In this document: in pieces, positions 6,410 through 64,000 of the stretch | Position numbering within the stretch: position 1 is the first letter of the stretch | How the letters are laid out: each line of letters starts with the position of its first letter | Assembly: GCF_030845175.1 (NCBI RefSeq) | Contig: NZ_CP132542.1 | Location: 1,534,607-1,598,606, forward strand | Reading direction: 5' to 3' | DNA length: 64,000 nt | Source: Coralliovum pocilloporae | Lineage (GTDB): Bacteria; Pseudomonadota; Alphaproteobacteria; Rhizobiales; Cohaesibacteraceae | Translations under genes and position numbers: made by a program | Notes under the pieces: generated by a model | What the model was told of the DNA's origin: nothing | What the model saw: only the letters and a program-made list of their open reading frames with translations | Databases searched by the model: none

Positions 6410-7411
6410 ATGACTGACACGAAATTTGATGTTCTTGGCATCGGAAATGCCATTGTCGATATTATCGCTCGTGAGAACGATGATTTTCTCGCCAGTCATG
6501 ACATGGTCAAGGGCTCCATGATGCTGATCGATGAGGCGCAGGCCGATTCAATCTATAATGACATGGGCCCTGCAACGGAAATTTCTGGCGGTAGCGCAGG
6601 CAACACAATTGCCGGTGTGGCGTCCTTCGGCGGTCGGGCAGCCTATTTCGGCAAGGTTGCGGATGATGAGCTGGGCCGGATTTTCCGGCATGATATCCGG
6701 GCCATCGGCGTTCATTTCGAAACAGCACCACTGACGGAGGGCCTGGGCACGGCGCGCAGCATGATTCTGGTCACGCCGGACGGAGAGCGGACCATGAACA
6801 CCTTCCTTGGAGCCTGCGGTGCGCTGGGGCCGGATGATATTGATGCGGAAATCGTCGGGGCTTCTGCCATCACCTATATGGAAGGCTATCTCTGGGACCC
6901 GGAAGAAGCCAAGAAGGCGTTTCTCAAGGCAGCGGACATTGCACACGCCCGAGGTCGGAAAACCGCGCTGACCCTGTCTGATTCCTTCTGTGTCGACCGG
7001 TATCGCGATGAGTTCATCGGCCTCCTGCGTGATAATCACATTGATTATCTCTTCGCCAATGAGGCCGAGTTGAAATCGCTCTACCAGACATCGGATTTCC
7101 AGTCCGCCGTTGATGCTATCCGCAAGGATTGTGCCTTGGCGGCTGTAACCATCGGTGAAAAAGGTGCGCTGGCAATTGCAGGAGATGCTGTTTACGAGAG
7201 CTCAGCATTCCCGGTTGAGGAAATTGTTGATCTGACCGGAGCTGGTGATCTGTTTGCCGCTGGTTTCATGACGGCTCTGACCCGTGACAAATCCCTTGAT
7301 GATGCTCTGGAACTGGGATGTCTGGCAGCCTCAGAGGTTATTTCTCATCTGGGTGCCCGACCAAACACGTCTCTGAAAGAGCTGGCCGGGCAAAAAGGCA
7401 TCGAGCTTTAA
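6410..7411 (+). CDS. PfkB-family sugar/adenosine kinase
   Basis: A 333-aa ribokinase-fold enzyme, most like the alphaproteobacterial proteins annotated as adenosine kinase (ATP-dependent phosphorylation of adenosine to AMP in purine salvage). Signatures: GIGNAIVDI near the N-terminus, the substrate loop SGGSAGNTIAGVASFGG (about 60-76), and the PfkB signature 2 DLTGAGDLFAAGF with catalytic Asp280. The start is supported by CCAGGAGC 7-12 nt upstream of the ATG. The substrate is inferred from family resemblance; other PfkB substrates remain possible. A repeated hairpin element starts 8 bp after the stop. Confidence 0.85.
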   Translation: MTDTKFDVLGIGNAIVDIIARENDDFLASHDMVKGSMMLIDEAQADSIYNDMGPATEISGGSAGNTIAGVASFGGRAAYFGKVADDELGRIFRHDIRAIGVHFETAPLTEGLGTARSMILVTPDGERTMNTFLGACGALGPDDIDAEIVGASAITYMEGYLWDPEEAKKAFLKAADIAHARGRKTALTLSDSFCVDRYRDEFIGLLRDNHIDYLFANEAELKSLYQTSDFQSAVDAIRKDCALAAVTIGEKGALAIAGDAVYESSAFPVEEIVDLTGAGDLFAAGFMTALTRDKSLDDALELGCLAASEVISHLGARPNTSLKELAGQKGIEL

Positions 7412-7418
7412 TCAGAAA

Positions 7419-7524
7419 CTATAGCGTGCTTCCGAAAAGTTGACAGACTTTTCGGATAAAAGCTCGCGTAAAAATAATATGTTAAAGCACCTTCGCCGGT
7501 TCAGCATTAAGGTTTGGTGCTTTA
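7419..7524 (+). repeat. 106-bp dispersed double-hairpin element, copy 1
   Basis: It aligns without gaps to 61910-62015 (82 of 106 bases identical; only 4 differences in the first 50). Hairpin 1: TCCGAAAAGT (7431-7440), loop TGACAG, ACTTTTCGGA (7447-7456), 10 bp perfect. Hairpin 2: TAAAGCACC (7483-7491) with GGTGCTTTA (7516-7524), 9 bp perfect. The element sits between the convergent adenosine kinase and cysK genes, next to a further hairpin. It resembles the small palindromic intergenic elements of rhizobia in general style. Confidence 0.85.
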
Positions 7525-7551
7525 GATGGGCGCATGTATTGTGCGCCCATC
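7525..7551. terminator. perfect 10-bp hairpin between convergent genes
   Basis: GATGGGCGCA (7525-7534), a 7-nt loop, then TGCGCCCATC (7542-7551). It abuts the repeat element and lies 12 bp from the cysK stop. There is no T-tract on either side, so it would act as a stabiliser or weak bidirectional terminator. Confidence 0.5.
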
Positions 7552-7562
7552 TGTTCCTGACC

Positions 7563-8534
<972 letters not shown>

Positions 8535-19773: not shown

Positions 19774-19883
19774 TAGGCGCTGATGCTAAAACACCAGACC
19801 TTTAAACTTGTTTTTGCGCGAGCTTTTATCTGAAAAACCTATCAACGTTTCACAAGCACGCTGTCGAAAGTGACCCAAACACA

Positions 19884-61909: not shown

Positions 61910-62015
61910 CTACAGCGTGCTTCTGAAAAGTTGATAGACTTTTCAGATAAAAGCTCGCGCAGAAACAAACTCGTAAAGCGCCGCTACCAATTCAAGTTAA
62001 AGGTCTGGTACTTTA
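61910..62015 (+). repeat. 106-bp dispersed double-hairpin element, copy 2
   Basis: The ungapped counterpart of 7419-7524. Hairpin 1: TCTGAAAAGT (61922-61931), loop TGATAG, ACTTTTCAGA (61938-61947), still 10 bp perfect because both arms changed together. Hairpin 2: TAAAGCGCC (61974-61982) with GGTACTTTA (62007-62015), retaining seven Watson-Crick pairs and one G-U pair, with one mismatch. Its last three bases are the stop codon of the minus-strand hybrid kinase. Confidence 0.85.
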
Positions 62016-64000
62016 ACGGGATGCGATATCGGCAAGAAGGCTCTGCAGGCGTTCAGGATCGATAGGCTTGGTGATAAAGCCGTCGAATTGCAGGTCATCA
62101 GGGTTTTGGCCGTCCTCGGCCAGAACATCTGCTGTGAGGGCGACTACAGGAACCGGGGCGCGACCCAGCTCCTGTTCATCTTCCCGGATCTGCCTGAGGG
62201 CGGATCTGCCATCCACTCGGGGCATGTGAAGATCCATCAGGATCAGGTCGTAGGTTCTTTCCCGGGCGGCCATGATACCTGCATCACCATCGGCAACCCG
62301 TGCGGGTCGATGGCCTGTTTTCTGCAACAGGGTTGTGACCAGAAGCGCGTTGACATCATTGTCTTCCACAACGAGCACTTTCAGCGCAGACACGGGCGCT
62401 GGCTTGTCTGCATCAGTATCAAGGATCGTTTCCGGCGCTTTATCGAGCGGGGTCGTGTGATCATCCGGATCAAGAAGCTGATCGAGCAGTCGCTTGAGTG
62501 TTGCCGATCTGATCGGGCGAACCAGAAAAGCGTCCAGTCCCTGGGCCTGCCAGTCATTCAGCCTGTTGCGACCGTCATGGGTGAGAATGACTGCACGGGG
62601 GATATCCGGCAGTGATATTTCTCTGAACCGGGTCGATACAGTTTCGGGGTTCTGCTCACCAGTATCCGCGTAAAGCAGAAGATCCGGTTTGAACTTATCA
62701 TCAAACCTGATGTCTTTCAGGTCGGACGCGATGGTAACGTGATGGCCGAGTGCCTCAAGATCGGTTTTCAGAGCTGGTGCTTCCAGCGGGCTGTCCCAGA
62801 TAATCAGGCAATGACCCGGATCTGAGGACGATTCAGTTACAGAGGCGGGGTCTGCCTTGACAGACAACACAAAATGGAAGCGACTGCCGGATGTGCCTGT
62901 CTCAACATCAATATGGCTGCCCATCAGGTGGACGATGCGCTGGGAAATTGAAAGCCCAAGGCCGCTGCCGCCATGCAGGCGCGTGGGGCCTTCGTCTGCC
63001 TGGGTGAACTCATCAAAGACGGCTTCTACCGGCTCAACCGCGATGCCGGGCCCTGTGTCCTCAACGGAAAAGGTCAGGTGATAATGTCCGTCTTCCTTAT
63101 CCGGTTCAGAGGATATGGACACCCGGACGCCACCGGTCTCTGTGAATTTGACCGCATTGCCGATCAGGTTGAGAAGAACCTGCCGCAAGCGGCTACCGTC
63201 AAGCATGATGTTTGAAGGCAGGGCCGGGTCAAGCTGTATGGCCAGATCAAGGGATTTTGCATAGGCCTTGGGAGCGAACAGTTCGGCCAGCTTTTCAACC
63301 AGATCCCGAATATCCGTGGGCTCTGAACTCAGATCCAGCCGCCCGGCCTCAATGCGTGAGATGTCGAGCAGGTCGTTGATCAGTTCAAGAAGAGCCAGGC
63401 CGGAAGACTGGGCAATATCCGCGTAATTCCGCTGCTCCGGAGAAAGCTCGGTATCCATCAGCAGGCCGGTCATGCCCAGAATGCCGTTAAGTGGCGTACG
63501 GATTTCATGACTGACCGTGGCCAGAAAACGGGACTTGGCGCTGTTGGCATCCTCAGCCGCGATCTTCGCGTCTGTCAGGGCCGTCTCATGCGCCTTGCGG
63601 TTGGAAATGTCCTGCGCCAGGGTCAGTGTCGAGGTGACACGGTTTGCCTCATCCCGGATGGTGATATCACGCCAGGAGAACCAGCAGGGACCTGACACCG
63701 TCTGCAATTGCAGGTCAATATCGCCTTCACCATTGACCGAAATGGTATTGTAGCTTTCTGTCAGATGATCCAGATCGAGTGTGTTGCCGATCCTGATATG
63801 CGGATTGCCCGCAAGAAGGCGGCTGGCCGATGGGTTCATATAGGTGATGCGATCATTGGAATCCCGCTCCAGAACCACATCTCCGGACTGGTCGATCAGG
63901 GCGCGGTAGTGTTGAAGGGTGTCCCGCAGTTCCCAGATTTCATCCTGGAGCTGCTCGCTTTGATCCGCTGAAGCCCTGACAGCAAGGGCTGAACCGTTTG
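62013..64000 (-). CDS. hybrid sensor histidine kinase/response regulator, 5' end outside window
   Basis: The reading frame stays open to the right edge (it reads N-G-S-A-L-A-V-R at the edge), so a GTG at 63878 is not the start. In order: a coiled-coil-like piece, a PAS domain (around GDVVLERDSNDRITYMNPSA), HisKA with the phospho-His in FLATVSHEIRTPLNGIL, HATPase_c with NLIGNAVKF, DTGPGIA and GGSGLGLSIS, a first receiver-like segment that is degenerate (no LxMD-type aspartate), and a complete receiver (KVLVVEDND, LILMDLHMP with the phospho-Asp, ALTAD and a conserved KP). Its stop codon is provided by a repeat element. The input signal and downstream target are unknown. Confidence 0.9.
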   Translation of the reverse strand, partial: NGSALAVRASADQSEQLQDEIWELRDTLQHYRALIDQSGDVVLERDSNDRITYMNPSASRLLAGNPHIRIGNTLDLDHLTESYNTISVNGEGDIDLQLQTVSGPCWFSWRDITIRDEANRVTSTLTLAQDISNRKAHETALTDAKIAAEDANSAKSRFLATVSHEIRTPLNGILGMTGLLMDTELSPEQRNYADIAQSSGLALLELINDLLDISRIEAGRLDLSSEPTDIRDLVEKLAELFAPKAYAKSLDLAIQLDPALPSNIMLDGSRLRQVLLNLIGNAVKFTETGGVRVSISSEPDKEDGHYHLTFSVEDTGPGIAVEPVEAVFDEFTQADEGPTRLHGGSGLGLSISQRIVHLMGSHIDVETGTSGSRFHFVLSVKADPASVTESSSDPGHCLIIWDSPLEAPALKTDLEALGHHVTIASDLKDIRFDDKFKPDLLLYADTGEQNPETVSTRFREISLPDIPRAVILTHDGRNRLNDWQAQGLDAFLVRPIRSATLKRLLDQLLDPDDHTTPLDKAPETILDTDADKPAPVSALKVLVVEDNDVNALLVTTLLQKTGHRPARVADGDAGIMAARERTYDLILMDLHMPRVDGRSALRQIREDEQELGRAPVPVVALTADVLAEDGQNPDDLQFDGFITKPIDPERLQSLLADIASR

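Follow-up and report, generated by a model that had tools for sequence, protein, structure and literature searches.

What is the 106-bp, two-hairpin repeat that lies in the gap between the convergent genes 6410-7411 (+) and 7563-8534 (-), whose translations read as sugar/adenosine-kinase-like and cysteine-synthase-like, respectively? The original prediction offered a structured RNA or a palindromic mobile unit. We analysed the repeat in a window of 64,000 nt (G000:C1:1534607-1598606, in a single contig of 3,918,007 bp, 3.92 Mb) of Coralliovum pocilloporae, in the rest of this genome and in related genomes and plasmids. With a probability of roughly 0.7, we read it as a MITE-like, non-autonomous mobile element of small size that belongs to the CIR / RIME / Bru-RS kind, probably moved by a transposase of the IS630 type.

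The copies of the repeat in the window and their parts are given in Table 1. When copies 1 and 2 are aligned without gaps, 82 of 106 bases are identical, as had been stated, and this is far above chance since no other ungapped match of copy 1 on the plus strand of the window exceeds 46 of 106. Both copies are bounded by TA. The double change described for hairpin 1 is present (TCCG...CGGA in copy 1, TCTG...CAGA in copy 2), and the left half is indeed better conserved, with 46 of 50 bases shared compared to 36 of 56 in the right half. The same is seen family-wide: in 62 full-length copies from this genome, hairpin 1 deviates less from the consensus (0.044 at paired and 0.068 at unpaired positions) than hairpin 2 (0.104 and 0.172), and in both hairpins the paired positions deviate somewhat less than the unpaired ones. 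Folded as DNA, copy 1 gives z = -5.46 (+) and -5.13 (-), and copy 2, whose second hairpin is partly decayed, gives the weaker values of -2.35 (+) and -2.27 (-). No Rfam family matched the window over its gathering score. A perfect 11-bp palindrome whose loop is 7 nt long (window 7524-7552) begins where copy 1 ends, sharing its last base, and lies between the convergent genes.

Table 1. Copies of the repeat in the window and their parts (window positions; R1, covariance model of the repeat).
Feature	Position	Strand	Remarks
Copy 1, full-length element (106 bp)	7419..7524	+	R1 121.9 bits
Hairpin 1 of copy 1	7424..7467	+	T.T mismatch and 4-nt bulge on 3' side
A-rich linker of copy 1	7468..7482	+	
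Hairpin 2 of copy 1	7483..7524	+	
5' terminal TA of copy 1	7420..7421		Flank CTA
3' terminal TA of copy 1	7523..7524		Flank TAG
Copy 2, full-length element	61910..62015	+	R1 126.8 bits; one minus-strand gene on either side
Hairpin 1 of copy 2	61915..61958	+	T-A at the place of the C-G of copy 1
Hairpin 2 of copy 2	61974..62015	+	Partly decayed
TAA stop codon of histidine-kinase/response-regulator gene 62013-63998 (-)	62013..62015	-	Last three bases of copy 2
Copy 3, shortened	19787..19866	-	R1 54.5 bits; hairpin 1 and linker retained, hairpin 2 mostly gone

Far from being restricted to two copies, an outcome that the original prediction had counted against itself, the repeat is scattered over the genome in about a hundred copies. 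A blastn search with copy 1 gave 41 matches, and the covariance model R1, built from 29 copies, gave 116 matches at E<=0.01, on both strands and over the whole chromosome, and at least 128 at E<=1, with 150 of 1568 first-look candidates scored; the copy number is a lower bound. Fetching and re-searching 100 loci produced 111 rows, corresponding to 108 places, and to 106 after removal of two antisense double calls; copy 3 of the window lies outside these 106. According to a simple hexamer ORF caller made for this analysis and trained on 26 window ORFs, 88 of the 106 places are clear of called ORFs and 18 overlap one. All of the 62 full-length copies differ from one another, nearest neighbours sharing 84-105 of 106 bases. 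We regard the repeat population in this genome as old and decaying. By eye, the weak matches include half elements, made up of hairpin 1 alone (e.g. L117 and the first match of L087) or hairpin 2 alone (L129). The latter (L129:2471-2512, G000:C1:1229070-1229111) is a solitary TA-bounded hairpin 2 that contacts the stop codons of both of its convergent neighbours.

Among 31 near genomes, a set in which the closest relatives come from another genus, R1 found matches in seven: 116 in the own genome, 91 in G009, 61 in G016, 53 in G030, 16 in G020, 7 in G018 and 2 in G024, whereas most congeners of G009 gave none. With a broader model, R2, based on 25 sequences from six genomes, 15 of the 240 genomes sampled from the class gave matches under strict filters. 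The anatomy is constant, consisting of a hairpin 1 core resembling CCGAAAAGT...TTTTCGG and then GATAAGA or a similar sequence, a AAAACAAA-like linker and YTA...TA ends, and the stem of hairpin 2 varies between genomes. Repeats matched by the G020 copies are present in 68 plasmid records (58 from Rhizobium) and those matched by the G016 copies in 61 (56 from Rhizobium); a direct blastn of copy 2 against the plasmids gave no match. The exact core of the own type was found in one record only of the genome contigs searched, L154, a Hyphomicrobiales MAG, where hairpin 1 (L154:7343-7370) lies in a ribosomal-protein gene cluster, between genes read as rpoA and rplQ.

The ends of the repeat point to an insertion site. 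TA is present at the 5' end position in 78 of 106 places, where it is preceded by C (49) or T (29) and never by A or G, and at the 3' end in 79 of 108, where it is followed by A (48), G (18) or T (13) and never by C; from these counts, the target site is therefore YTAR. Empty alleles were sought at five loci in Rhizobium plasmids, three of which gave pairs of filled and empty sites. At the pRL9 locus, the insertion is base-exact with TA on both sides, as the filled allele (L179) reads GAGCGTC-TA-GAGC...GCTC-TA-AACCCG and the empty one (L184) GAGCGTC-TA-AACCCG, with L182, L183, L185 and L186 likewise empty. The malonyl-CoA synthase locus is filled in L157 and L175 and empty in L171-L174, and the mctP locus is filled by a hairpin-1 half in L159 and L177 and empty in L176 and L178. 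At the fourth locus (L158), only filled alleles appeared among the 30 records listed out of 251, and no close relative was found for the fifth (L181). The relatives in Rhizobium thus agree with what an IS630-mobilised MITE would leave, namely a TA at each end of the element and one TA where the site is empty (three loci, one base-exact). At all three loci this TA belongs to a stop codon: the empty alleles have TAA or TAG there and the filled ones TAG (L171 is unannotated). At two of the three (L157, L175; L159, L177), the base before the TA is C when the site is filled and G or A when it is empty, which counts against the model because a simple duplication of TA does not predict such a change.

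IS630 is the best candidate for the mover, probably with a partner that is now lost in the own genome, since the element has its TAGAGC tips, its TA boundaries and its YTAR flanks in common with an alphaproteobacterial IS630 clade. The same TAGAGC ends bound ISRel6 of Rhizobium etli and related elements from Rhizobium, Bradyrhizobium, Mesorhizobium and Sinorhizobium: eight of nine ISRel6-like elements carry TAGAGC at both ends (1049-1087 bp; adjacent bases all Y-TA/TA-R), and in the ninth (L198) both ends read GAGCGTTTCAC and one TA has been lost. The pair TAGAGC...GCTCTA bounds the elements L187, L188 and L189, and the IS630-type loci L190-L194 are not so bounded. In a class-wide draw of 30 IS630 loci, TAGAGC at both ends was the best pair of TA-bounded inverted ends in 15 (one being L187 again), with Y-TA and TA-R flanks throughout; the rest comprised two with TAGAGT on one or both sides, one weak pair that probably arose by chance and 12 in which no end pair was found. 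When compared to the IS consensus TAGAGCGTTTC, the tips of 25 elements score 7.76 (5') and 7.08 (3') of 11, against a background of 4.24 for TA-anchored 11-mers of the window. Weighing against IS630, the tip shared with an IS630 element, TAGAGC, is short, with 6-7 bases fully conserved, inward of it the element and the IS differ, and the tips of the own-genome type have drifted to TACAGC and TAAAGC.

We looked for the transposase itself in six genomes and found matches to PF13358 (IS630 DDE) in G016 (2), G020 (2) and G257 (4). The own genome, G009 and G030, which are three of the four most copy-rich genomes (116, 91 and 53 copies), gave no PF13358 match and thus lack the partner transposase that an IS630-mobilised MITE would be expected to have in the same genome, which speaks against the model; G016 (61 copies) is the sole one of the four with a match. 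An IS630 query transposase also found no match in the own genome. When 240 genomes of the class were compared, IS630 relatives were commoner among the element-positive genomes (6 of 15) than among the element-negative ones (34 of 225; Fisher p = 0.023; 5 of 15 versus 18 of 225, p = 0.008, at a stricter cut of E<=1e-50 that was chosen after the data had been seen), and 9 of the 15 element-positive genomes have no IS630 match. In the mechanism that we propose, a transposase of the IS630 clade with YTAGAGC...GCTCTAR ends would have acted on the tips to copy and insert the element, and old copies would then drift. The palindromes would matter as DNA to the moving element, or would help it to survive as a source copy, and would not act as transcripts of each copy.

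A different mover is unlikely, although two candidates deserve consideration. One is a RAYT/Y1 transposase (IS200/IS605-type) acting on single-stranded hairpins: two Y1_Tnp (RAYT) genes of identical sequence are present in the own genome, and the YTA of the left flank and the TA of the right end can also be read as Y1 cleavage sites. However, these genes are flanked by another palindrome (GGTGACAGTTTACT-type) and not by the window element, and we therefore reject RAYT as a mover of the REP/BIME type, where the repeat flanks the RAYT gene. The other candidate is an IS5-type element targeting YTAR, such as IS711, which is reported to target YTAR with duplication of the TA and to land in Bru-RS (PMC2266754, PMC3163539); what is reported there is insertion into Bru-RS rather than a sharing of its ends. 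The RAYT-like Y1 genes are located at G000:C1:2723001-2723327 (+) and 2741162-2741488 (-) (L155 and L156), and the palindrome, GGTGACAGTTTACT / AGTAAACTGTCACC, is found on both sides of them with more copies near by, forming a second small-repeat family.

Exact contact with a neighbouring stop codon was found for 31 of the 106 own-genome elements (33 contacts, of which 32 are with TAA or TAG and one with TGA), as in copy 2, whose terminal TTA supplies the kinase gene with its TAA stop. A special targeting of stop codons is rejected, as 31 of 106 fits the proportion expected for YTAR sites (17 in stop codons among the 67 window YTAR sites located between genes or within a stop codon; p = 0.61). 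Insertion into a stop codon is harmless because the tip rebuilds a stop: YTAR sites within TAA or TAG stops would tolerate the element, as the tip base after TA (G or A) would restore the codon. Among the 105 elements with both neighbours called, 44 lie between convergent genes, 55 between tandem genes and 6 between divergent genes, compared to 7, 30 and 7 of 44 window gaps. Convergent contexts are thus enriched (p = 0.002) and divergent ones are rare (p = 0.058). Relative to tandem genes, 19 elements are in sense and 36 in antisense orientation (p = 0.03), a bias that disappeared when flush copies were left out (18 and 26, p = 0.29).

This distribution could be taken to mean that the repeat does a cellular job at the 3' ends of genes, as a terminator, as a protection of mRNA ends or as a site for CcrM (GANTC) or a nucleoid protein, an explanation that we consider rather improbable. 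Neighbouring genes face the elements with their 3' ends in 144 cases and with their 5' ends in 67, in line with such a job, as are the rarity of divergent gaps and the exact stop-codon contacts. Yet the contacts match random YTAR insertion outside coding sequence, and purifying selection against promoter hits yields the same 3' bias, so that promoter avoidance accounts for the gene context as well as a function would. Furthermore, of the 73 full-length copies in the own genome, just 13 have GANTC in the second half (the background in the window is 0.09 per 45 bp), and beside copy 1 the separate 11-bp palindrome is already available to the convergent genes. GANTC in the second half is found in 10 of 17 copies in G009, 2 of 16 in G030, 2 of 4 in G020 and 0/4 in G016/G018.

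The double change in hairpin 1 had been taken as a sign of selection for pairing, and the outcome differs with the level of comparison. Between genera (25 sequences), 94.9% of 622 cells are paired, a percentage that is favoured by taking the structure from the same alignment. Double changes occur in 14 of 25 pairs, with 83 double-changed cells against a shuffled mean of 24.3, and the covariation score is 0.405 compared to 0.177 when shuffled, a score as high being reached in 0 of 500 shuffles and slid controls giving 0.035-0.106. Within the own genome, covariation is weak (A1), with 8 double-changed cells against 2.3 in shuffles and a score of 0.085 against 0.072. In the 62 copies, 208 of 1784 stem cells deviate. 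One-sided changes have broken the pair in 90 of these and left it intact in 81, and double changes have left it intact in 24 and broken it in 13. Pairing has thus been kept through double changes between genera and subfamilies, and within the genome the changes are mostly uncompensated. Uncompensated stem mutations throughout the genome, named beforehand as evidence against the idea, are largely what single copies contain, whereas compensation among subfamilies and genera is real. We read this as structure being retained in the lineages that spread and lost in the copies left behind, which decay as DNA. A repeated element with two hairpins, in which pairing was retained through double changes, is supported, and so is the palindromic mobile unit of the original prediction.

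Mutation alone could also produce pairing without selection, if template switching copied one arm of a hairpin onto the other (quasipalindrome correction), but as an explanation of the compensatory changes this seems quite improbable. In L074:2462-2563 and L079:2493-2594, the bulge is lost and the mismatch is mended together, giving a perfect palindrome. In these 2 of 62 copies, the bulge is gone, the T.T mismatch is paired and the arm is copied exactly, as one event would do, and both palindromes are probably due to template-switch correction. In nearly all copies, however, the bulge and mismatch persist, and such corrections must therefore be rare; moreover, at the hairpin 1 pair that differs between copies 1 and 2, the T.G state is common (T-A 45, T.G 10, C-G 6, A.A 1), as stepwise change predicts. 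Template-switch correction nevertheless provides a mutational source of paired change without selection. The repeat as a whole also warns that compensatory changes need not imply a functional RNA.

Such an RNA, that is, a structured RNA or small-RNA gene family whose copies are transcribed and whose hairpins act in RNA (stability, termination or regulation), is very unlikely. The strong covariation between genera and the enrichment of copies between convergent genes would both fit it, as would the full-length alignment of RF02600, reported as a small RNA of Brucella abortus, in four genomes (E 7.9e-10 to 5e-4). RNA selected on one strand should favour G.T over A.C, and one-sided G.T cells are not clearly commoner than A.C cells (59 versus 49, and 49 versus 49 without the hairpin 1 pair of copies 1 and 2), which, together with the mostly uncompensated stem changes within the genome, leaves the RNA role unsupported and leads us to reject structured RNA as the main reading. 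The non-flush copies without orientation bias to tandem genes, the hundreds of loci with TA-bounded insertion and empty alleles, and the lack of a clear T run after any stem in the copies inspected also argue against it.

RF02600 (BASRCI27) itself is described in PMC9751625 as a 166-nt small RNA with confirmation of the RT-PCR type, but one transcribed Brucella copy does not turn the family into an RNA gene. Its full-length alignments have E values of 7.9e-10 to 5e-4 in four of five sources and 0.067 in the fifth, all under the 59.8-bit cut-off; it also matches Caulobacter vibrioides, among 14 controls, below the cut-off. In the own genome, it has 29 matches at E<=0.01, none over the cut-off, and 15 of these are outside the R1 list. 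By eye, these 15 loci (L201-L215) form two further subfamilies of the same anatomy, starting with TAGAGCATATTCCCGAAAAGTGTGTGCGGTTTTCGG or TAAAGCGTGTTGCGCCAAAGTGGGAACCGGTTTGGC, and part of them have GANTC. The RF02600 family appears to be a copy of the dispersed repeat, and its annotation as a single small-RNA gene deserves a second look. Some alphaproteobacterial small-RNA families may be mobile repeats.

By its anatomy, the element is a CIR / RIME / Bru-RS repeat of Alphaproteobacteria: it has two hairpins and a linker, is about 103-110 bp long and is dispersed, intergenic and alphaproteobacterial. Rhizobia, Brucella and Caulobacter have been known to carry such repeats since the 1990s. The kind of repeat is, therefore, already known, and no published connection of these repeats to IS630 was found in the open-licence literature searched. 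A review from 2007 stated that more information was needed on how such repeats move (PMC2229807), and the empty sites, the YTAR target and the tips shared with IS630 make this old question of their spread testable with one transposase and one mini-element. We would go further at about even odds, and suggest that the whole CIR / RIME / Bru-RS superfamily consists of non-autonomous passengers of one IS630 clade (YTAGAGC tips), with silent, stop-rebuilding insertion into YTAR and an exchange of hairpin halves as modules, and that some annotated 'sRNAs' (RF02600) belong to it.

Compared to the known systems, the element appears to resemble RIME, reportedly the Rhizobium-specific intergenic mosaic elements of Osteras 1995, in its size, two palindromes, intergenic location and mosaic halves; repeats in 58 Rhizobium plasmid records match the G020 relatives of the window element. 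CIRs (Chen and Shapiro 2003) are about 110 bp long, with two arms, a linker and GANTC at the loop, and their mobility was unexplained (PMC2229807); the table of that review gives their termini as TA and their target duplication as '?'. The window element is like them in its length of about 110 bp, intergenic location, two hairpin arms with a linker, terminal TA and distribution across Alphaproteobacteria, and perhaps in the GANTC loop of some copies, and differs in that GANTC is mostly lost in the window type; the empty sites and IS630-like tips are added here. Bru-RS1 and Bru-RS2 of Brucella are palindromic intergenic repeats of 103-105 bp (PMC2267715, PMC3163539). They have the same length, palindromic nature and intergenic location, and RF02600, which comes from Brucella, aligns full-length in four genomes and in Caulobacter, but scores below its cut-off, and Bru-RS is likened here by its description.

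The working model for the window element is taken from RUP of pneumococcus, which is about 107 bp long, with about 108 copies and a TA target, and is thought to be moved by the transposase of IS630-Spn1, which has the same ends (PMC2229807). The two are alike in size, copy number and TA target; however, the ends of RUP pair together, whereas each half of the window element forms its own hairpin, and the hosts are unrelated. Finally, the ISRel6-like IS630 elements share with the repeat the TAGAGC tips, the TA boundaries and the Y-TA...TA-R flanks, and differ from it in being about 1.05 kb long with a transposase gene and in having an inner sequence unlike that of the element.
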